Notes under the pieces: model-generated | Databases searched by the model: none | Told to the model about the DNA's origin: nothing | What the model saw: only the letters and a program-made list of their open reading frames with translations | From: Nitzschia sp. DOCU1 | Taxonomy: Eukaryota > Bacillariophyta > Bacillariophyceae > Bacillariales > Bacillariaceae | Assembly: GCA_951394045.1 (NCBI GenBank) | Contig: OX595995.1 | Coordinates: 806,001-870,000 of the forward strand | Reading direction: 5' to 3' | Length of the DNA stretch: 64,000 bases | Program-made: the position numbers and the translations under genes | In this document: positions 20,192 through 40,665 of the stretch, in pieces | How the letters are laid out: every line of letters begins with the position of its first letter | Numbering within the stretch: the stretch's first letter is position 1

Positions 20192-23100
20192 ATGAACATT
20201 CTCAACAATGGCATCGTCATGGCTCCAGGAAAGCAATTGGATCAGTATGCGCGCGCAAGGGGACTGTGTCGACTATGTGGCCAGACCCAAACACATCGCA
20301 AGTCCGCTCGGTTTCTGAAACGATTGCGCCATGAATGGCAACCAGTAACGTTGGTAGATGAGGAGAGTGGTCAATACCTTGTTTACAAAGGGTACTGCAT
20401 CCAACCCACCTGTTATTCCTTGGAGGAAGCCAAGATCAAACTTGGTGAAAAGCCCGATAGAAGACGGTCGGATGAGGTCTCCCAAGCATCCATACGAATA
20501 TCTTCTCGACTTCCTTGTCACCCGTCCTCGCCGATGAAGATGAAATCCCGACTGAACAGCAGCATGGCCTCGGAAATGTCAGCTACGGTCTCCAACACTT
20601 CGGCCTCCTACTTGTCTGACGAAGAAGATGCCCGTGGTTTGAAGCATCTTGTCTCCAGCACAACCACAAATTCGCGCGCACACTTTGATGTTCCCATGTC
20701 ACTTGATGCTTCTGGACGAGAAAAGCTAATCCCTACTATGCCATTGCAAGAGCAGTTGGTGGCCTTTCTTCAGGATTCAAAGCATTCAACTTTAGATTTC
20801 TCTGGTATCGATCTCTCAGACGAGAGTATCGCAACTATTCATGATGCTTTAAACGACCACCGGCAATCGAAAGGAAAGTTGCGGCCACAGGACTTGATTG
20901 CCGATCGATGCAGACTGAATGATAGTCGATTGATCAGGTTGGTGGAAGTTTTGTTGACAAATGACGTTATTGTATCCAAATTGACGTTACGTTCCAACTT
21001 TGTGGAGAGCGCACAAGGCCTCATTCCCCTTCTTCACTCCAGCAGTCGACTTCAAGAACTGAATTTGTCCAAGAACCGACTGGGTGATGAGGGAGTTCGA
21101 ACCGTAATGTCGGCGTTGGCCGGCAATCCGCTAGCTGGACTTTTGAAATTGGATCTCTCGAGCAATCAGGTTTGGACCCTCTCGGATTCCTTTGCAACCT
21201 TCCTCGCTACCAATCAGACTTTGGCCATGCTGCAGCTTGAAAATAACTTTCTACGCGACGCTGGTGTGGCAACGGTCGCTCGATCAATCAGCAACAATAA
21301 GCAAAGTGCTTTACACACTCTGTGCATAAGCAATAACGCATTTGGCTACTTTGGGGCGAGAGCTCTTGCCGATATGCTTATCAAGAATACGTCGATTCGA
21401 GCAATCAGAATCGGGACTAACGAGATTGGCGACAAGGGCGCCGAAGCGCTGCTGGATGCTCTTTGTAAAAGCAACCAGTCACTCCAGGAAATTTCGGGTC
21501 TTTACGCCAACCGGATTGAATCCAAAAAACTGTTGACATTGATAGAGACATGCCTACAAGAGCGCAACGGCAAAGAAGAGTCGATCTCTAATGCATTTTT
21601 GCAAGTGCAGTCGGAAAGAATCAACCATGATTCCTTTACCGATATCACCTTTTGTGCCGAGGCAGACAATCTGGAAGTTTCTTCTTCTCCGCTGGGATTG
21701 ATGGATGAGTGCATAGAAGGCAAGGACGTTGTGACAACTGTAGGATCTAACATTGAGAACGTCTGCTCAGTTTCTATTTCTTCGGAGAGCAGCGATGCTG
21801 ACGACGACGACGACGACGGTGGTGGCAGTGATTCTGCTATAGAATCTATGGAGATTTCACTGCACGAAACTGAGAAACAAGCCCATGGACGCGACTGTCC
21901 ATCGCCACTCTATAATCCGGCAGTCGTGGCCCCAGACGTATCGATTCGCTCATCAGGCTTTCGGACTGCTTTGGAGGCCCTAGACTTAACATCCCCGAGT
22001 CAACACCGGCGCCTTGTCAAAGGATCAGAACAGGGGTTCCGTGACTTGACGACTATTTGTCTCAGTGCAAGTGGACTGGAACAAGATGGGTTTGAAACAG
22101 TCGCTTTGCCCGCTAGTATCAGAAAGATTGACGTGGTCGATGATACTGCATCGGAGTTTGAAGCTACCGACTGTGGAGTTGAAGTTTCGTTCAATGAGGA
22201 TCGGTTCAGCAGCAGCAGAACCGATTCTGCCACAACAGCATTAGAGGATACGATGCCTTCTACTCGATGTGAGCTTGAATGGGAAATAGAAGCTTGCAAA
22301 GTTGCTCTATTCGATCGCCGCCAGAAGAGCGAGAAGAAACGAGTGAAAAAGAGGCTTGCAAAGTTGATGTCGCTTCGCTCTTCCATGCCAACAAAGCCAG
22401 AACTCCAGCAGAAGCTTGCGGAAATTGATTTGGCCTTGATGGCCTTGACCGGAAATCATGAGACTGCTCAGAGACAAGAGCTGTTATCAGAGCGAAGTCA
22501 TCACCGACAGCTCTTGGACGAAGAGATCCGAGCTGAAGGAAACCGCAAGTCAGAACAAACTATGTCTGCCGACTCGATGGACGTCCCAGGGACTGGCTAC
22601 ATGCCCAAAGCCAATATCTACGAATGTGACGAACCTTCCTACTGTCTGACTTTGTTTCAAGCCGCGCCATTGTCATTTGTCGACCAAAAGTCTGGTATAC
22701 GCCACAATTTCCCTTTGTTGGATTTCGACTACGAATCACAAGTCCTGAAGCAATCGTTGAAAGATGCAGAAAGAGTCGGGATCAGGATAGAACTTGAGCA
22801 TGAGATCGCAACAACAGATCGACTTAGTGCATTCTTTGCTCAGGGTGGGAGGCGTCTTCTTCACCTATCTTGCCATGGCCATCCGAATTGGCTTGCTCTG
22901 GAAAATGGTTTTGGCGATATGCAACCGCTGTTTGTCGAGGACTTGCGAGGCTTTATCGCCGCCGGAGGCACCAGCCTTGATTTTGTCTTCATCTCGGCAT
23001 GTCACTCCTTGCCCGCAGGTCGGGCTTTTCTTCAGGCCGGCGTTCGCCATGTGGTTTGTGCAAAACAGGATTCCAAGTTTCGGGACGAAGCTTGTGCCGA

Positions 23101-24545
23101 GTTTGCTCGATGTTTCTACCGAGCATTGGCTTGCAAGAAAACTTTGAAGCAAGCCTTTAATATGGCTAAAGAGGCTGTGCGGTATGTTTTGACTCCTGCT
23201 GCTGAGGTCTTGTAACACAATTGTCTCACGTTTGCATTGTGCCATCCGCAGTGTCTCCCCTCTCGTCAAGAATGCCAAGGTCGAATCAGACAAATTCATG
23301 CTACTACCTGAACATCCCCATGACGATTCTTTTCACGACGTCCACGTCTCGTTTGCCGACAGTCGCCCTCGACCCGCAGTCCGTGCTGCTTCTCCAACTC
23401 CACGAGCTGCCAAGCGTGTCCCCTCCACTTTCGTCGGAAGGGAAGCGGAAATGTATCGAATCTTGGAGGCTCTTCGGCGGACCGATTTGGTCCAAGTTTG
23501 TGGCGAAAATGGTACCGGCAAGAGCACTTTGGTGGCGGCCGTTGTGGAGTACATCTTGCAGAGACAATCTTTCATGATCGATGACGTGGTATGGCTGAAC
23601 AATCACCATGATTCGTGCAAAGACAACAAGACAGCCGGTTTGTTCCAGAAATGTATAGATACTTTCCGGGATGCAAATGGTCCAGTCAAACAATCGCCTG
23701 CATACAAGGAGATTCGTGTTCAGCTTCAACAAGAGATGGAAGGAAAACAGGTGTTGTTGTTGCTTGATGCCCGCGGTTTGTTGGCTTATCATCGTACTGT
23801 CCACGATTTGGAAGCTTTCCTCCAGGGCCTTGTGCAGACTCTGCCCGTGAAGATTATTCTCACTGGAAATACGCCACTCAATGCCAAGATTCCATCAAGG
23901 ATCATCGGTATTGGACCCCTTGACCCAGAGTCGTCTTCGCTTTTGTTTTCAAACCTTGTACATTCAGGCCGTTTCTCGCCCCGAGAGCTTGCAAAGACTT
24001 TGGCACCCAAAAAGTGCACAACCAATGCGCCTTATCCATTACGGCGGAATGCAGTCATTTTCGAAAGAATCGGGCGTGGTGTGCCATCGGACATTGTACA
24101 AATCGCGGCCCAGATCTCCGAGAAAGAGTTGCTCGAGCTCGTTCGCATTGCGAAAAGGCCATGTCCACAAATATCCACTCGCGTTGAACTCGAGGATGAA
24201 ATCAAGAAGTTACTAGCAGAAGAATCCTCGGCCCTTCGTCGGAAGCACTTTTTGCGTGCCAGAGATCTCCGAGACTCCATCGATGAGCTCCAGGGAATCC
24301 GGCAGTATTTACGGACAACCGAGGACTTGACAATTGAATGTTCTGCATTACGGGATCAACTAGAAATGGCAACCAAGACCAGAAAATACGACCTTGCAGA
24401 CAAAATTCAGAAAAGACTTGAAACATTGGACGGGCAGATCCTACAAGAGAATATGGCTCAGGAAAGGATGAAGGAAGACCTCTTTGACAAAGCTAGTGCT
24501 CGAGCCAAGGAACTCAGGAGCAAGAGAAGAGCTAGCCAGAAATAG
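20192..24545 (+). CDS. LRR-CHAT protease-STAND ATPase fusion protein, two exons
   Basis: Exons 20192-23181 and 23252-24545 join in phase 2 across a 70-bp intron (gtatgt...ccgcag) to give about 1427 residues. In order: a Cys-rich element near residues 28-75 (CRLCGQTQTH and later CIQPTC, zinc-binding-like); a disordered part; ribonuclease-inhibitor-type leucine-rich repeats at ~205-455 (LQELNLSKNRLGDEGV, LLKLDLSSNQ); an acidic linker; a basic coiled coil; then a CHAT (caspase-like) domain at ~820-995 with HLSCHGHPNW (His895) and FISACHSLPAG (Cys937), the expected catalytic dyad. After the intron come FVGRE and a P-loop, GENGTGKST (Lys1087), a Walker B-like VLLLLDARG, and a GIGPLDPESSSLLF segment like NB-ARC/STAND ATPases. 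The C-terminus is a coiled coil with UVR-like KYDLADKIQKRLE. All parts of an NLR-style sensor-switch-protease are in one protein. Domain calls are strong; the biological role is inference. Confidence 0.85.
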
Positions 24546-26868: not shown

Positions 26869-28824
26869 ATGGCCAGCACCACAACGGTCATTGTTACTCC
26901 TAACTTGGCGCTACACGCCAAAAAGCGCATTCACGATGACTCCCCTTTGCCTACCATTGTCGATCCAAAGAAGACGTGTCTCGACGACGATCATGGCGAG
27001 AGCAGCAACATCAACATCAACATGAATAAAAAAGCACGGGACGAGCAAAATCTCCAATGGATGCATGCCTTTCAACGGGGTCAACTCACTGTTTTGGATG
27101 CCATTACGCAATCAGGCTCCATTGATGGAATTTTACATCTTTTGGAATTTCTTTTTGAAACGAATCGTGTCGAGACGTTTTGTTTGGATATACTGTTGGA
27201 CTTTGGGGAGTACTTCCCCGAAGCTGCTCAAAGTCAACTCTACTTGTTTGCACAATATGGCTGTTGGCAGCAACTTTTACTGCTAATGGAACGAGCAGCA
27301 GGATCCCAACAACAGCGCAATGATAAAGTGGCAGACAAGATTGGTATTGCGATTCTTGTGATTCTAAAGGATCAGTGGGCCGCGGATCTAGAGGCTTTAT
27401 CATTCATACAAAACGACAACAACGACGATGGAACTACCACTAGTACGCTCAGTGACCTTGCCCTTTGGCTACCACGGGAAGGTAGCCGGTGGGATCTGAA
27501 ACTAGACTTTACACGACGATTCTCTCGACTTGTTGTGGTCAATCCCAGAATGAAAATACTACAAATTGCCAAGGAACGATACAGGAAGCAATTGACGGCA
27601 CTACGAAAGTCAGTCATGGCACAACGACACCATCAGTTGTCGTCGTCGCCGACATGTGATAACAACCATGAAATGCTGCACGTGGTTTCGGTTGGCTCAC
27701 TGCGAAGCGAATGCAGTCACCCAAACTCTCCTGCTCGTCGCAAACGAGATACGAAACCAAGCTTTCAGCATTCGTCATGTTTCCCAGCTTTCCTGTCCTT
27801 TGCTCCCAATGATATTCAGAACGAGGCAAGTGAAAATTTTGAGCTACCAACAGAAGGTCGAGTGGATCAGTTCCTATACCTTCAACGGAACTTTCGACTG
27901 GCCAGCGAGTCATTTCTGCTAAAGCCTATCCGATCCTTTGACCGTCACTCTGCCGAACGGATACTCTATATCCATCAAGGTGAGGTGGGCTATGCCGTCC
28001 CCTCGCAGTGCGATGTGATTTTGAGTGACAAGGCTACTACTTGTCACATTCTATCGATGCAAAGTACTTGTTCGTCGTCGACGATCTCAGGGGTACCGAC
28101 ATTGACAAGCTTGGTTCACATTGATGGCTCCTTTTATCATCAGTGCATGGAGGAGATGATTGAGGCCCACGTGCGCCACCACATGGAAAGCCTACGACTA
28201 TCCCACCAAACCTCCAAAATTCATCTGCTGATAGACGTCGTCGGCGGGTTCGATGACGATCGGGGAGCGTCAGCCGAGATTTCAACTTGGCTTCTACATA
28301 CATTATCCTATCTGGCAGAAGCATTTCGTGACGTGTTGACCATGAGCATTCGGACTTGTGCGATAAGCTTGTTGAACGATGACGGGTATTGCAACCCCAT
28401 TGGACGTGGAATGGGTATCGACTTGAGAACTGGTGAAGCGTTTTTGGCCAAGGCGGACTCAGCAGTCGTTGGTCCGGCACTGCAGCTGCGGTCCGCCCGA
28501 ATTTGGGCTGGAGAAGGCGATGGGCGGCTCGCCGTCGTTCACTCGGCTAGTACCAGCAGCAATGATGAGTTTGTAATTCATCCCTTTGAGTTTGGAGTTT
28601 TTGCCCGACTCCACGAATTCCTCCGACTACCGGACCAAAAGATGATTCGGCGAACATCCACCTCACCGGATGCAGAAAAACCCGATTTTTGTGCTTCGGT
28701 TCGAAACACACTCCGCTTCATGAAAAATGTGGAATGTCAACGTGTATTCGGTCCGAACCTTGATCAGTCTTTGGTCTATCGACGCGTAGGATCGTCGAAT
28801 GTATGGAAGAGGACTTCGTCGTAG
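26869..28824 (+). CDS. NTAN1: Protein N-terminal asparagine amidohydrolase (NTAN1-like) with long N-terminal extension
   Basis: This is an intronless 651-residue protein from ATG 26869. The C-terminal ~310 residues align in order with human NTAN1, which deamidates N-terminal Asn and so feeds proteins to the Arg/N-degron pathway. Shared blocks are ERILYIHQGEVGYAVPSQCD, SDKATTCHIL (catalytic Cys ~392), LVHIDGS, DVVGGFDDDRG, STSPDAEKPDFCASVRNTLR and LVYRRVGSSNVWKRTSS. Human NTAN1 is ~310 residues, so the first ~335 residues are extra. That part contains WLPREGSRWDLKLDFTRRF followed by KERYRKQLTALRKS, which recalls DUF2828 family proteins, although this second match is weak. The two halves are linked by a Ser/His-rich stretch. 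The whole could be a natural fusion; the amidase assignment is firm. Confidence 0.85.
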   Translation: MASTTTVIVTPNLALHAKKRIHDDSPLPTIVDPKKTCLDDDHGESSNININMNKKARDEQNLQWMHAFQRGQLTVLDAITQSGSIDGILHLLEFLFETNRVETFCLDILLDFGEYFPEAAQSQLYLFAQYGCWQQLLLLMERAAGSQQQRNDKVADKIGIAILVILKDQWAADLEALSFIQNDNNDDGTTTSTLSDLALWLPREGSRWDLKLDFTRRFSRLVVVNPRMKILQIAKERYRKQLTALRKSVMAQRHHQLSSSPTCDNNHEMLHVVSVGSLRSECSHPNSPARRKRDTKPSFQHSSCFPAFLSFAPNDIQNEASENFELPTEGRVDQFLYLQRNFRLASESFLLKPIRSFDRHSAERILYIHQGEVGYAVPSQCDVILSDKATTCHILSMQSTCSSSTISGVPTLTSLVHIDGSFYHQCMEEMIEAHVRHHMESLRLSHQTSKIHLLIDVVGGFDDDRGASAEISTWLLHTLSYLAEAFRDVLTMSIRTCAISLLNDDGYCNPIGRGMGIDLRTGEAFLAKADSAVVGPALQLRSARIWAGEGDGRLAVVHSASTSSNDEFVIHPFEFGVFARLHEFLRLPDQKMIRRTSTSPDAEKPDFCASVRNTLRFMKNVECQRVFGPNLDQSLVYRRVGSSNVWKRTSS

Positions 28825-32964: not shown

Positions 32965-33235
32965 CGGCCGTGTCTAGCTAGCGTACCTGGTACCGCCGCG
33001 CAGTTTTGCGTTCAAAGGTAGATTGGTTGACTCCATGGACTCTATGGAGTTTACCGATAGGTATTAATACATATCATACATATGTATGTATATATATTGA
33101 TTGCTTTGCGCGCAATATTTTCTTCGCCTCTCGGAGGGAAAATGGCGAATGCTTCTTTGCCAGCTGCTACAGACAGTACCCAAGATCCAAATTCCAGCAA
33201 CCCAAAAGGTGTGTCTATCACAAGAAGCAGCAACC
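32965..33235. other. Divergent intergenic region
   Basis: This is a 271-bp head-to-head gap between the JmjC gene and the lipoyl-TPR gene. It includes an AT-rich ATACATATGTATGTATATATA tract near 33070-33092, which may belong to a promoter. A short alternate-frame ATG at 33142 opens a 50-codon frame ending at the Ser tract; it may be an upstream ORF. Confidence 0.35.
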
Positions 33236-35309
33236 ATGATGTTGTCGTCAGTAAAGACAACACTAGCAGCAGCAGCAGCAGCAGCAGCTACTAGTAGTAG
33301 TAGTCGTCATCATGAGTCTTGTCGGTTGTGGCAACGAACCTTCTTTTCGGCGTGGACTCGGACTCGTTCCGTGAATGCCAAGGTTCATCTCCAAGCCAAC
33401 AATAACGACTGGACTCACGGCACGGTCCGTCATCTCTTGTCCGTGGGTACTCGAGTTGAACGAGGCAATGTCATTGCATTGATTCGACCTCTTGAGGGCG
33501 ATGATATTGCCATTGAAGCACCTACGAGTGGTCGCATTGCCGAATGGTACATTTCACCCTCCAGCGAAATCCAAGTAGGAGATGCCATGGTGGAAATTGT
33601 TCATGACGACGAACAAGCATGGAAAGACCACTTGACAAATAACAACAATAGCAACAATAACAAGACGTTGGAATTTCTTCAACAAAATTACACGCAACGT
33701 GAGGATATTACTCGACTGGAACAATTGATTGAAACGATGCGTCCACCACCACAACAGCAACCAGCAGCAGCTGCAGCACAGTCGGCCGCGTCTACCATGA
33801 TTCCTCTCTTTCAACGGCTTTTGGAATTGCAAATTCTACACGAATACGATTTAGTGGCCCAAGCTCAGACGCACACGGACTGGGGAGTCTGTTTATTCAA
33901 TCGCGTGGGAGATTTGCCCGGTGCTCTCGAGCAATTCCACAAGGCACTCCAATTACGCCAAGAGTTTTACGGCAGCAAAAGTCATCCACACATTGCTGCA
34001 TCTCACATTCATTTGGGGGCTATTTACAAACAAGCAGGACAATTGCCACAAGCTTTGGAGCATATGCAAACAGCCTTGCAATTACAAATCCAAGATTTTG
34101 GTACGACGGTCAATGATCGAATTGCAGTAGGATACAGCAATATCGGCACATTACACTTTCAAATCGGTAACATGGAACAAGCCAAGGAAATGTATTTGAA
34201 TGCATTGCAGATTTATGAATCCTTGACAACGACGAATAATAATAACGACGAGACAACGACGACCAAAGTATCGAGATCCGACGTGGCAAGGCACACATCA
34301 CAATTTGGGCATTGTGCTCAAGCATTTGCGAGACTACGATCAAGCCGGTCAGCATTTGCAACGTGCATTGGAAATTCGATTACAAGTATTGGCGGATACT
34401 TCACCAGATAATGGCAACAACAAGACAGTAGCGGCAGCCATGGACGATGCGGCAACGAGTCACTTTGCCGTAGGACAATGGTACTCGGAGCAACATCAAC
34501 AACGACGCATGAGCCAGGCTTTGGACAAGGCCCTACATCACTTTCAGTCGGCCCTCAAGATACAACAAGCCTTGTATGGGAAAGATACTCCCATCATCGC
34601 TGCCAACTACAACACTGTAGGAGGCGTCTATTATCAAAAGGGAGATTATAATTCGGCTCTTTTGGAATATCGCAAAGCACTCAACGTGTTGCGACAAAAT
34701 AACAACGACAAATCGGACTACCAACAGCAACAGCAACAGCAGCAGCATCGTGATGATGTCTTGGCGGCCACGCTTCATAATGTCGGATTGGCCTTGTATC
34801 AACTGGGGGAATTCCATGAAAGTTTGAAACAACATCAGCAAGGACGGCAAGTGTTGGAAAAATTATACGGTAAGGATCATTTCAGTTTGGCGACTACTAT
34901 CAAAAGTATCGGTAACGTCCATGCCAGTTTGAAACAATGGGATGACGCAATGACAGAATACCGCACGGCCCAACAAATCTTGGTGCAACATTTGGGATCT
35001 GACCATTTTGAGGTGGCGAGTTCCTTTAACGACATGGGGCTCGTATACAGTCAACTACCAGGAAAATCAGACGAGGCATTGGAAGCCTATCAGGCAGCAG
35101 CCCGGATTTTTGGTAGCTCGCTAGGAAGTCACCATCCAAACACGGGGTCGTGCCATTTCAATGTCGGATTGGTTTGGAAATCCAAGGGGAATACCCAACA
35201 AGCCAAGCAAGCATTCCAAAATGCCCTGGACATATGGCAAGCGAGTTTGGGTGCAGAGCATCCTAATACTGCCATGGCAGCCGAGCGTGTACAAGAATGT
35301 AGTAAGTAG
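33236..35309 (+). CDS. Lipoyl-like domain plus kinesin-light-chain-type TPR protein, with an apparent +1 frame break
   Basis: The frame from ATG 33236 and the frame ending at 35309 belong to one protein. The N-terminus (MMLSSVKTTL, a run of Ala, then basic WQRTFFSAWTRTR) looks like a mitochondrial targeting peptide. It is followed by a biotinyl/lipoyl-like beta domain (GTVRHLLSVGTRVERGNVIA ... IEAPTSGRIAEWY ... VQVGDA-like VGDAMVEI) and then many ~42-residue TPRs of the kinesin-light-chain type (LGAIYKQAGQLPQALEHMQT). The lipoyl Lys position is not conserved as DKA or similar; Ser-Gly-Arg is seen. Between about 34284 and 34300 the reading shifts by +1 (VAR to THHNLGIV), where one extra base after AGG would restore a perfect TPR. 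No intron fits in the gap. It could be a sequencing error, a frameshifted allele or recoding. Confidence 0.68.
33265..33288. repeat. AGC trinucleotide run coding the polyalanine of the targeting peptide
   Basis: AGC/GCA repeated about eight times, then TAG/AGT units. In the TPR gene frame it reads as Ala codons (GCA); in the +2 frame it reads as serines. Slippage-prone. Confidence 0.8.
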
Positions 35310-35514: not shown

Positions 35515-38500
35515 TCAATCCATTATTTCGGTTTCGTGGCTCGGCGGTCCCATGGCGATCTCCGTCGATTCGTATCGAGAAAAATTTGCCTCCCGAAGCG
35601 TTTCAGACAAGTCCTCACGAACAGCTTCGACGTTTCTTTGAAGAAACTTGGATGCCTTGGTTTGGAAATAGTTGCATGCCTTGGACAGGCGTTCAATTTC
35701 AGATACACGAATATCGTCCATTCGTTTCCATTCTTCAAGTTCACGGAGTAGCTTGGTAAATTCCAAACTCAAATTCTCGTTTTGGTTGCCTTGTTTATTT
35801 TTTGCGATCGCTGATTCATACCAGGATGCCAATTTCTTCAACTCACGCATACGTTCCTGCTCTTTGGCCAAAGCAGATTTCACGTCAATCAGTTCGGTAG
35901 CAAGATTTTGCTTGTCGGACTCGACCAACTTGAGCTCCTCCTTGAGGACGTTATACATGGAATCCATCTCTTCACGAGCACTTGCCGATTCTTTCCATTT
36001 CTGATCAAGCGTCCAGACCTGCTCTTCTAGATCCTTAACCTTGGCAACAACTGTCTCGAGCTCCTTCTTGGATTGATCAAGCTGTTCGGTCAAGTCCTGA
36101 GAATTAGCCTCCCGAAGCGTTTCAGACAAGTCGTCACGAAGTGCTTCCACGTTTCTTTGAAGAAACTTGGATGCCTTGGTTTGGAAATAGTTGCATGCTG
36201 TGGACAGGCGTTCAATTTCAGATATACGAATATCGTCCACTCGTTCCCATTCCTCACGTTCACGGAGCAACTTGGTCAACTTGACCGGATCGGTAGTACC
36301 ACAAACACCTCGTACGTTCTCGAGCTCCAACGTCGATTCCTCGTTCAGAGCAGTGGCCTCCTTGAGACGTTCCTGCTCTTTGACCAAGTCGGATTTCACG
36401 TCAATCAGTTCGGTAGCAAGTTTTTGCTTGTCGGACTCGACCAACTTGAGCTCCTCCTTGAGGACGTTGTACATGGAATTCATCTCTTTACGAGCACCCG
36501 CCGATTCTTTCAATTGCTGATCAAGCGTCCAGACCTGCTCTTCTAGATCCTTAACCTTGGCAACAACTGTCTCGAGCTCCTTCTTGGATTGATCAAGCTG
36601 TTCGGTCAAGTCCTGAGAATTAGCCTCCCGAAGCGTTTCAGACAAGTCGTCACGAAGTGCTTCCACGTTTCTATGAAGAAACTTGGATGCCTTGGTTTGG
36701 AAATAGTTGCATGCCTTGGACAGGCGTTCAATTTCAGATACACGAATGTCGTCCATTCGTTTCAATTCCTCACGTTCACGGAGCAACTTGGTCAACTTGA
36801 CCGGATCGGTAGTACCACAAACACCTCGTACTTTCTCGAGCTTCAATGCCAATTCCTCGTTCAGGGCAGTGGCCTCCTTGAGATGCTTACGAGTGGTCTG
36901 GATCGTTTCCTGAGAAGCCTTATCCATCTCAGAAAATCGGGACTCGGCCGAAAGTTGCCGCTCGTGCGACTCGACCAGTTTGTTCGAAACAATCGCAAGC
37001 GTATGGCGTAAATCGTTGGTTTGCCTCTCCAAGAACGACTTCGTTTCTTGAAGTCTAGAAAGTTCCTGGGTAAGCCCAATCATTTCTGTGTCATCATTAC
37101 TGGAGGCTCGACCTAGACCACTATTGAGTCTGCTGGTTGATTTTGTCGACGGTAGAAGTTCGCGTGGCTGGAGATCTTCGGGGCCGAGCTGAGATAACGC
37201 TGAAAGCTGTTTTTTCAAATCCATGTTCGACTTCACTACTTTCTTCAAATTGGCACTCGTTTCGTCGAGAAGTGCCAACGCCCGTCTCTCTCCGGCTTCG
37301 GCTACCAGTTTCCATTCATGCGTCTGGCGCTGCCTCTTTTCTATCTCCTCTAGCCGAGTCTGTAGGGTGGCGACTTCTTCGGCCAAATTCTTGCTCAATG
37401 AACGGGCGTCCATGAGCTGTTGAGTTTTGGTAGCAAGGGCACGGTGAAACTCTTCCTTGTGCTGCGACAGAGCCATACGGGCATCGTGAAGCAGCTTTTC
37501 CTGTTGGTCAAGACGTTGTTGGAGATCGACTTCCCGCGTTGACAAAACCTTGGCTTTGGCAGCGACGGAAGAAAGATTGTTTTCTGCTGCCTCGATTTTA
37601 TCCATGCAAAGCCTCACCTGTTCCTGATAAACTCCTGATTTTTGGACGAGAAAGCGTCCGTAGACGCAGGAACGTTGCGAAGCCTCGGCAAACCCAATGA
37701 TCAAATTCAAAACTGCGCTGGTCGTACTTCTGAGCTCAGGTGGAGCATTGGGCAGATAATTTTTGAAGAACTCCAGATCTTCAGCTGAAGCCTTTCCCCA
37801 CACTTCATTGGCAATCTGATCCCGTATCAAATCAAGTTTGTTGGGCAAGATTAATTCATGGGCTGGTGATTCCGAGGGATCGGCAGCAATGCAATCGATT
37901 TCGTGTCTTAAAGCGCCGTCATCTTCGAGCTGCTGGAGGTGAGATTCAATTGCCATCTTTGACGCCTGAAAGTGACTAATCACATTGTTGAAGAATTGTG
38001 TTTGGCTTGACACATGCTCGCTAAGTTCGTGAGCCGCCATGTTGGCCTGCCTTTCTAGCTCGTTCAGCTGAGCGCAGGCCCAGTCAACTCTCCGCATACC
38101 GTCCTGGATGATTTCCATTTTCTCAGCCTCGAGATCCGCAATGTGAAGTTCAAGCTCTCTAAATTGCGCCAACGCACTCTCGATACGTTCCTGCTGCTTT
38201 ACACAGAGGGATTGCGAGCTAAGAAGTTCGCTCTCCTTTCGGTCGCGCGCCTGGCGAAGTGACGAATTTTCAGTGATCAGCTCTGAAAGCTTCTTCTTCT
38301 GCGCCTCTGTCGACTTGCGAGATTCATCACGCAGTGCATCGTTTTCTGTGGCCAATTTAGCCATACGAGCACTGGTTTCTTCGGTCTCCTTTTCCGTCGT
38401 AGCTAAGCGCTCCGTCAAAGAATCCCTTTCTCCCAGAAGGACGTACACTTCGCTCCGCAACGCTTTCTCAATCTCAGCGGCCTTGGAGCGAGCTTCACTT

Positions 38501-40665
38501 AGTTCAACGGCCTTGGAATTGATGGCCTTTTCTAGGTAGGCAATTCTCCGTTCACTTTCGAGATTATCTTGCTCGAGGTCGGCATAGCGCTGCTCTAGGC
38601 CCTCAAATTTACTCTGAAGCGCCCGGAATTCTTCGCGTGGGATCAACTCTTCCTTTTGTCTTTCGAGTGCTGCGAGCTGTCCCTGAACCATGGACAATTG
38701 TTCCAATCGCTCCAAGGATAGTTTCTCGATGGCTGACTTTTCGTCGACAATTGCAGAACACTGTTGCTCCAACGCAGTAAAACGCGCTCGCAGCTCCCGA
38801 GATTCTTCGGCCTCCTCTTCGGCATGCGACAGACGCCATTGTAGCTTTGACAATTGTTCCGTTTGCTCTTGCGACAAGACCTCCAATTTGGATTTTTCGA
38901 CTGCAAGGTTGGCGCATCGTTGTTCCAGCTCCTCACACTGGGCTTGCAGCTTTTGAGATTCTTCAGTACCCTGCTCTAATTCCGAAAGTCGTGTCTGTAG
39001 GAGCAACAACTGCACCTGTTGCTCCTGAGACAAAGTTTCAAGTCTTGACTTTGCATCAGCGAGATCGCTGCATCTCTTCTCAAGGGTGTCACACTGCGTT
39101 TGAAGCTCGCGTAAGTCTTCCGTCTCACGCTCGAGTTGCGACAAACGAGAGGTGAGCGATGTCAGTTGCTTTAGACGCTCCTCCGCCAATGTCGCGAGTT
39201 TGTGTTTTTCCTCGGCAAAGTCGTCGCACTGTTGCTGTAGGGCATCCGAAATTCCTTGGAGCTTCGTACATTCTACCATCAAAACGGACTCTCCGTCTCT
39301 CTCTAGACTTCCTTGGGCAGAATCGCCCGCTTCTGATGGCTGCTTGGGCATTGAACCAAGGGGAAAATGGCCTGCATTTTCCATTGTTATCGTCCTGGGC
39401 CTGTCAGAAGACACATTGTTAGTGTTCTCGTCGGGCTCTGTGTTCAGGCTTGAGCGACTACCTCTGTTGAATGAGTCAGCCAGTCCTTGCTGGGAGTCCG
39501 AGAGAGCCCGATCCAGGGACCGAACCTTTTCCAGACGAGCCCTTTGACGAGCCGACATTTTCTCCTTCTCTTCAAACAATCGTCGTTGGATACGCTCCGA
39601 GTGCTCGCGTTCCATTTCTTGCCTATCTTGTTGCTTCTCCAATTTTTCGATGCTTTCAATGATCGTCAGTTTGAGATCGTTAGTAGGAATGGGCGTTTGC
39701 GCCAGGCTGGCATCCAGATAGGACTGGAGGAGCTTTGCTTTTTCCTCAGCACACTCGGCATCGCGCTGTGCTTTGCGGGCGGACATGCTTATTTCGGAGA
39801 GCTGCTCTGTCAGAGCCATTTCCCGTGCCTCTTTCTTCATAAGTTCAGCCTCGGCACGTTGTATCCTCTCCTGTAACGTTGCCAATGCAGCGGAACTAGG
39901 AATGATACCCCCACCCTTCGTTGATGTTTGGCCTGAAATAGAGCCATCCTGCAGCATAAAGGACGACTGATCAAGAGAGGTATTGGTTGCGGTAGTGGCA
40001 GTAGTATCGGCAGTATCAGTCGACTCATCTCCATTTGCATGAGTAGGCGACAGTTTGTCCCTCTTTTCTGGCTCGACCTTCTCTATTTCTTCAAGGAAGT
40101 GGAGTCGACTCTCCTGTTCTCGAACTTGAACTTCTAATGCAGCATTGATCCGCTTCAATAGACTCTTCTGCTGGTCCCAAGCATGCTGTTTTCGCTGCTG
40201 CTGTTCCATCAAAAGTTTCTTTTCATTCTCGAGCTCTTCGATGCGGTGAAGGAGATGCATGTTAGCATTCTCATTCAACAGATTTATTTGCTCCTGAGGA
40301 AGAGCGACCGGCCCACTCTCCACGGAAGAATGAGATCTAAAGGCTTCGTCCGTCTCCTTATGGACATTATTGTTCGCGCGGGGCGTGTCGATGTCAAGAT
40401 GTTGCCTTTGGGCCGTGCCATCAGGCAGCGGCGAAGATTGATCGAAATCAACGGCATTATATGAGTCTTCGTCCTCTGTACACAGACGGGACCTGGACAT
40501 ATTTGCCGCTTGACTTCTACTGTGGCGTTGTCCAGCAGCGGCAGAAGATTCCAAGGAACGTGGAGTGGGATCAAGAGGAGTCGACGCAGGACATGCCAGC
40601 ACTCCAGCGGCACTATCGACGTCGTCGAAATCTCCTATATTGCGAGGTGACATTATTACCTCCAA
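35515..40665 (-). CDS. Giant coiled-coil protein (1716 residues) with internal tandem repeats
   Basis: This is one uninterrupted 1716-residue frame from ATG 40665. After a Ser/Asp-rich N-terminus of ~150 residues, nearly the whole length is heptad-type coiled coil, with Glu, Lys, Gln and Leu dominant. Two repeat families are obvious: a ~52-residue unit (C-x-x-LE-x-RC-x-x-L-A-x-x-K-S-x-LE-x-LSQEQ) in at least four copies near 38640-39285, and a ~172-residue unit in about 2.5 copies near 35588-36882, whose copies are almost identical in DNA. Between them lies a part with Met- and Cys-containing helices (for example MEIIQDGMRRVDWACAQLNE). Proteins of this kind serve as centrosomal, Golgi-tether or cytoskeletal rods; I recognise no golgin, myosin or SMC signature. 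The function is open. Confidence 0.8.
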   Translation of the reverse strand: MEVIMSPRNIGDFDDVDSAAGVLACPASTPLDPTPRSLESSAAAGQRHSRSQAANMSRSRLCTEDEDSYNAVDFDQSSPLPDGTAQRQHLDIDTPRANNNVHKETDEAFRSHSSVESGPVALPQEQINLLNENANMHLLHRIEELENEKKLLMEQQQRKQHAWDQQKSLLKRINAALEVQVREQESRLHFLEEIEKVEPEKRDKLSPTHANGDESTDTADTTATTATNTSLDQSSFMLQDGSISGQTSTKGGGIIPSSAALATLQERIQRAEAELMKKEAREMALTEQLSEISMSARKAQRDAECAEEKAKLLQSYLDASLAQTPIPTNDLKLTIIESIEKLEKQQDRQEMEREHSERIQRRLFEEKEKMSARQRARLEKVRSLDRALSDSQQGLADSFNRGSRSSLNTEPDENTNNVSSDRPRTITMENAGHFPLGSMPKQPSEAGDSAQGSLERDGESVLMVECTKLQGISDALQQQCDDFAEEKHKLATLAEERLKQLTSLTSRLSQLERETEDLRELQTQCDTLEKRCSDLADAKSRLETLSQEQQVQLLLLQTRLSELEQGTEESQKLQAQCEELEQRCANLAVEKSKLEVLSQEQTEQLSKLQWRLSHAEEEAEESRELRARFTALEQQCSAIVDEKSAIEKLSLERLEQLSMVQGQLAALERQKEELIPREEFRALQSKFEGLEQRYADLEQDNLESERRIAYLEKAINSKAVELSEARSKAAEIEKALRSEVYVLLGERDSLTERLATTEKETEETSARMAKLATENDALRDESRKSTEAQKKKLSELITENSSLRQARDRKESELLSSQSLCVKQQERIESALAQFRELELHIADLEAEKMEIIQDGMRRVDWACAQLNELERQANMAAHELSEHVSSQTQFFNNVISHFQASKMAIESHLQQLEDDGALRHEIDCIAADPSESPAHELILPNKLDLIRDQIANEVWGKASAEDLEFFKNYLPNAPPELRSTTSAVLNLIIGFAEASQRSCVYGRFLVQKSGVYQEQVRLCMDKIEAAENNLSSVAAKAKVLSTREVDLQQRLDQQEKLLHDARMALSQHKEEFHRALATKTQQLMDARSLSKNLAEEVATLQTRLEEIEKRQRQTHEWKLVAEAGERRALALLDETSANLKKVVKSNMDLKKQLSALSQLGPEDLQPRELLPSTKSTSRLNSGLGRASSNDDTEMIGLTQELSRLQETKSFLERQTNDLRHTLAIVSNKLVESHERQLSAESRFSEMDKASQETIQTTRKHLKEATALNEELALKLEKVRGVCGTTDPVKLTKLLREREELKRMDDIRVSEIERLSKACNYFQTKASKFLHRNVEALRDDLSETLREANSQDLTEQLDQSKKELETVVAKVKDLEEQVWTLDQQLKESAGARKEMNSMYNVLKEELKLVESDKQKLATELIDVKSDLVKEQERLKEATALNEESTLELENVRGVCGTTDPVKLTKLLREREEWERVDDIRISEIERLSTACNYFQTKASKFLQRNVEALRDDLSETLREANSQDLTEQLDQSKKELETVVAKVKDLEEQVWTLDQKWKESASAREEMDSMYNVLKEELKLVESDKQNLATELIDVKSALAKEQERMRELKKLASWYESAIAKNKQGNQNENLSLEFTKLLRELEEWKRMDDIRVSEIERLSKACNYFQTKASKFLQRNVEAVREDLSETLREANFSRYESTEIAMGPPSHETEIMD
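35588..36106. repeat. Tandem coding repeat unit A (519 bp) in the coiled-coil gene
   Basis: Begins GCCTCCCGAAGCGTTTC and is repeated downstream at 36107 and 36623. The proximal part is less similar, and the segment for the ATNEENLSLEF-like stretch differs from units B and C. Confidence 0.8.
36107..36622. repeat. Tandem coding repeat unit B (516 bp, 172 codons) in the coiled-coil gene
   Basis: Same start as units A and C. Near-identical to A and C over long stretches. Length is a multiple of three, so the frame is preserved. Confidence 0.85.
36623..36882. repeat. Tandem coding repeat unit C (partial, about 260 bp) in the coiled-coil gene
   Basis: Repeats the first half of unit B to GGCCTCCTTGAG and then diverges into a unique sequence. 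Confidence 0.75.
38640..39285. repeat. Tandem ~52-residue coding repeats in the coiled-coil gene
   Basis: At least four diverged copies of a ~156-bp unit; each codes for a CEELEQRC or CDTLEKRC heptad block followed by LSQEQ and LSELE-like segments. They are older and more diverged than the 172-codon units. Confidence 0.75.

Follow-up and report, generated by a model that had tools for sequence, protein, structure and literature searches.

A gene at positions 20192 to 24545 (+) of a 64,000-nucleotide stretch of the genome of the diatom Nitzschia sp. DOCU1 (contig OX595995.1, positions 806,001 to 870,000; here called the window) joins leucine-rich repeats (LRRs), a CHAT domain and a STAND-type ATPase in a single protein. 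That such a fusion is real was confirmed; profile matches, predicted folds and the conservation seen among the nearest relatives of the protein also bear out its domain content and its apparently intact His895/Cys937 dyad. The gene belongs to a family in which, to judge from the aligned residues, a branch bearing macro domains has lost the protease centre repeatedly. An initial annotation had described a protein of about 1427 residues and proposed for it a role as a cell-death or pathogen-response switch; the predicted length was borne out by a spliced frame of 1427 amino acids (aa), and the interpretation as a whole is partly supported.

Gene structure and domain layout

The features of the gene are as follows.

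20192..23181 (+): exon 1, coding for residues 1-996 of the LRR-CHAT-STAND protein plus the first two bases of codon 997 (translation, junction)
20216..20467 (+): module with four Cys (C26, C29, C69, C74) at the N-terminus, residues 9-92
20726..21586 (+): LRR of the RNH1/NLR type, residues 179-465
22265..22561 (+): helical linker, residues 692-790 (predicted helices, predicted local distance difference test score mostly >90)
22643..23312 (+): CHAT domain, residues 818-1017, split by the intron (PF12770, 36.1 bits; family profile boundaries)
22874..22876 (+): His895 of the SCHG motif, predicted to be catalytic (aligns to GHG in 8tl0)
23000..23002 (+): Cys937 of the ISAC motif, predicted to be catalytic (aligns to NAC in 8tl0)
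23182..23251 (+): GT-AG intron of 70 bases (GT at 23182, AG at 23250-23251; homologue junction without gap)
23252..24545 (+): exon 2, which opens with the third base of codon 997 and closes with the TAG stop
23427..24116 (+): STAND-type ATPase, residues 1056-1285, with GxP motif
23502..23528 (+): Walker A, GENGTGKST (motif alignment)
23751..23768 (+): Walker B, VLLLLD (motif alignment)
24159..24542 (+): UVR-like helical hairpins at the C-terminus, residues 1300-1427 (homologue-model helices, motif alignment)

Without splicing, translation of exon 1 would end at a stop codon at 23215, and an ATG-started open reading frame (ORF) of 415 aa from 23298 covers the second part of the gene, as might be seen if a false intron had been used to join two adjacent genes. 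However, the intron lies inside the CHAT domain, and removal of 23182-23251 produces the junction AVRVSPLVK, across which the homologues P0001 and P0002 align without a gap. The metagenome ORF P0020 terminates (...AVRYVRT) just beyond this position, which suggests that the two sequences have the intron in common and that in P0020 it is unspliced. The same domain order is also present in uninterrupted frames of the same genome (L014, L015 and L017, of 1516, 1467 and 1462 codons from stop to stop) and in ORFs that their source labels as complete and derived from MMETSP transcripts (P0021, 1509 aa; P0045, 1481 aa), both of which contain a macro domain. On the evidence of the homologues, of the single open frames and of the ORFs labelled MMETSP, two wrongly joined genes were ruled out; an artefactual fusion is considered exceedingly improbable, and both exons belong to one gene, as had been proposed.

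The window protein exceeds the Pfam cut-offs for LRR_6 (38.5 bits; cut-off 23.4), CHAT (36.1; 24), AAA_16 (36.8; 32.6), nSTAND1 (33.3; 27.1) and NB-ARC (26.8; 23.5), in agreement with the domains first assigned to it, and the STAND region has Walker A and B motifs in addition to its profile matches. The C-terminal region, previously called a coiled coil, is better described from the homologue model and alignment as helical hairpins, which we take to be of the UVR type. No macro domain was detected in the window protein by a home-made macro profile. The model of its LRR superposes on NOD2 and NLRP3. The caspase-like fold expected of the CHAT domain was predicted, in the form seen in SAVED-CHAT, in the model of a homologue, and the CHAT profile matches 8tl0 (E 8.2e-10); because LRR matches took up the fold-search lists of the window's own exon-1 model, the fold evidence rests on the homologue.

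The four-Cys module, which may bind zinc, retains each Cys in 46-48 of the 48 proteins that bear it. It was found at five places of the genome, one of which encodes a 1451-codon protein of ARM-like repeats (repeat type judged by eye; L024:1860-6212, -) that is headed by the module and has no CHAT match; thus it is a shared module.

The diatom family and its protease centre

Two protein searches yielded homologues P0001-P0078, and the organisms, where the sources name them, are all diatoms: Nitzschia sp. Nitz4, Nitzschia inconspicua, Seminavis robusta and Cylindrotheca closterium. The N-terminal partners vary, as the four-Cys module occurs without LRR, with LRR or with PDZ (P0041), LRR occurs without the module (L016), and a kinase (P0022, P0027) or ankyrin repeats and a kinase (P0005, P0067) may be present, while P0071 has SH2 at its C-terminus. 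CHAT lies ahead of STAND wherever Pfam placed both, including P0075 and P0077 (CHAT-AAA-TPR).

The weak matches P0030 and P0031 were dropped and nine ORFs of the same genome were added with the window protein, giving 86 sequences, or 85 for the dyad count after exclusion of P0074, which has no CHAT match; P0066 was unreadable. The dyad has been lost in 31 of the 42 members with a macro domain by the home-made profile, and in 0 of the 42 readable members with none detected, although some sequences, among them P0020 and P0024, are incomplete, so that absence of the macro domain is not proven for each. Conservation of His895 and Cys937, set beforehand as a test of the initial annotation, therefore holds among the nearest relatives and fails in the wider family. 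Four of 11 macro-bearing proteins scanned (P0003, L014, P0058, P0060) pass the Pfam macro cut-off, and P0047, P0051 and P0054 are named by their source after a macro-domain enzyme, O-acetyl-ADP-ribose deacetylase. By eye, some degeneration is apparent in the macro sequences, and their binding of ADP-ribose is unproven.

A quick maximum-likelihood tree was made from the region after CHAT (76 rows, omitting from the 85 P0066, P0075-P0078 and the too-short P0020, P0024, P0068 and P0070); its deep branches are unsure, with long branches and a short search. Forty macro-bearing sequences form one clade (SH-like approximate likelihood-ratio test 100), with P0003 and P0060 outside it, and the window protein groups with P0001 and P0002 (95) and then with P0013 and P0014 (99), which have no LRR match. 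The fewest changes of dyad state on this tree are 5, rising to 12 losses if there is no regain and the tree is rooted on L009-L011. Nearly all of the losses are in one clade, and common descent may thus account for the association of macro domain and dyad loss as much as function does. The repeated loss indicates that the macro-bearing proteins most likely signal without proteolysis, and retention of the rest of the protein in that branch argues for additional, non-proteolytic outputs there.

These data also bear on whether CHAT might be a non-proteolytic interaction module throughout the family, with the dyad of the window's branch kept for structural reasons. The 31 macro-bearing members without the dyad do still have a recognizable CHAT domain. 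However, both residues are kept in every readable sequence without a detected macro domain, and in the macro branch they are replaced by many different letters (His by Y, F, V, S, I or N; Cys by V, Y, F, H, R or A), as expected once catalytic constraint has been lifted. A CHAT domain that is non-proteolytic throughout is improbable.

The genome (52 Mb, 63 contigs) contains at least 10 CHAT-STAND genes, nine found by the CHAT profile and L017, which has no Pfam CHAT match, by tblastn; ten is a lower bound because the search scores the best candidates only. LRRs are present in five of them (the window gene, L014, L015, L016 and L017), and the dyad is kept in seven (the window gene, L009-L013 and L016). 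The three that have lost it, L014 (Y/F), L015 (H/V) and L017 (V/R), all have a macro domain and are clustered on G000:C5 at about 3326000-3343000. The window's own type, with LRR and Cys module and no macro domain, was found as a single copy, without large expansion. A search of the genome with NB-ARC gave six places, the window among them. One CHAT-STAND ORF (L011:4650-8627, +), unlike its close relative L010, has one in-frame stop past the STAND region, which may mark a pseudogene, reflect an intron or result from an error of assembly.

Possible function and relation to known systems

The reading that we favour, and regard as moderately probable, is an NLR-like switch contained in one protein. 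A ligand or partner would be sensed by the LRR at the N-terminus, possibly together with the Cys module; nucleotide-driven oligomerization of STAND would gather the CHAT domains; and the His895/Cys937 dyad would then cleave the protein itself or other proteins. We infer ATP binding, oligomerization, proteolysis, a ligand, a substrate and any role in cell death from anatomy and conservation, of which LRR sensing with a STAND switch that gathers CHAT proteases is the most economical reading.

Several observations weigh against it. Animal NLRs (NOD2, NLRP3) and plant NLRs likewise combine LRR with a STAND NTPase, but have the LRR at the other end, whereas here it (179-465) is N-terminal of STAND (1056-1285). 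The order had been called unlike that of plant NLRs, and this is true of the LRR; it is not true of CHAT (818-1017), as NLRs usually carry the effector ahead of STAND, an order found also in P0075 and P0077. A winged helix is usual in NLRs, and none is apparent after the helical lid in the model of the homologue P0003. Some members of the family lack the Walker B Asp in the motif alignment, and Pfam STAND scores are under the cut-off in L009, L010, L011, L012 and L013, so that the STAND call in some paralogues is one of motif alignment. Added to these are the 0 gasdermin candidates found in the genome with the PF04598 profile (the control genomes were all prokaryotic, and divergent gasdermins could escape), and the presence of CHAT proteins elsewhere, as with TTC28/TPRBK, for which a role in cytokinesis is reported (PMC12314368).

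The gene might accordingly encode a CHAT-STAND protein that regulates growth, division or stress instead of immunity, with a role like that of CHAT proteins known from outside immunity. The role reported for TTC28/TPRBK, itself a TPR-CHAT protein, the single copy of the window's type and the outcome of the gasdermin search, a weak test, are in keeping with this. In contrast, the mosaic N-terminal modules (LRR, ankyrin-kinase, kinase, PDZ), the tandem copies and the repeated loss of the enzyme centre are in our view characteristic of conflict or receptor families, and such a regulator is rather unlikely.

Within the favoured NLR-like reading, it is tentatively suggested, as a doubtful extension, that these diatom receptors have a built-in caspase-like protease, and that members with a macro domain and a dead protease may act as sensors or ADP-ribose readers beside live-protease executors like the window protein, one branch having exchanged its output by losing the protease centre with the macro domain in place (12 times on the quick tree if it was never regained, and otherwise with at least 5 changes of state). 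If so, the arrangement could be likened to sensor-helper NLR networks.

NLRs recruit their protease, whereas that of the window protein is built in, and Avs anti-phage STAND proteins (Avs4, 8dgf) have sensor and effector domains other than those found here. P0075 and P0077, probably bacterial, match the family profile (E 1.3e-16 and 2.4e-12) and likewise have CHAT followed by a STAND-like ATPase (AAA_16), but end in TPR repeats and have no Cys module or LRR match. The SAVED-CHAT protease of type III CRISPR, whose PDB entry (8tl0) is titled as an activated filament, shares the CHAT fold and aligned dyad (PMC11417357), but is driven by a SAVED domain in place of STAND and LRR. CHAT-carrying NLRs are already known from fungi: in the available text of two reviews (PMC10197012, PMC12881547), dozens of NLR or NLR-like proteins have a CHAT protease, with CHAT control of gasdermins, and like the window protein they combine CHAT effector and STAND NTPase in one receptor-like protein. 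The sensor repeats given there are ANK, TPR and WD40, not LRR, and some of the genes lie beside gasdermin genes, whereas no gasdermin link was found for the window gene, and its product has LRR at the N-terminus and UVR-like hairpins at the C-terminus. The accessible portions of two further papers describe a CHAT protein of Aspergillus fumigatus as a candidate incompatibility gene (PMC11138114) and a contraction of genes annotated as NLRC3 in one diatom (PMC12803021).

No prior description of this family was found in the titles and abstract openings of literature on diatom, algal and stramenopile NLR, STAND, CHAT and caspase-like proteins. Within the literature searched, what is new is the pairing with LRRs, their position at the N-terminus, the family itself in diatoms and the association of dyad loss with the macro domain. 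Intracellular receptors that couple sensing to cell death, if diatoms possess them, would bear on bloom collapse, and the family is a concrete, testable candidate, with sensor, switch and protease in one protein, natural live and dead versions, and an output that loss of Cys937 should abolish. With protease loss linked to the macro domain, nature would have left an unusual record of how an NLR-like family changes effector.

Neighbouring genes

Pfam scans of 20 of the window's 30 other ORFs of at least 200 aa showed no gasdermin match. A 1712-aa ORF (35515-40653, -) has only sub-threshold Pfam matches. Two adjoining TPR ORFs (33149-34411 and 34440-35309, +) are possibly one gene split by an intron, and a large ORF at 26869-28824 (+) has an N-terminal-asparagine amidohydrolase domain at its C-terminus (PF14736, 172.8 bits).
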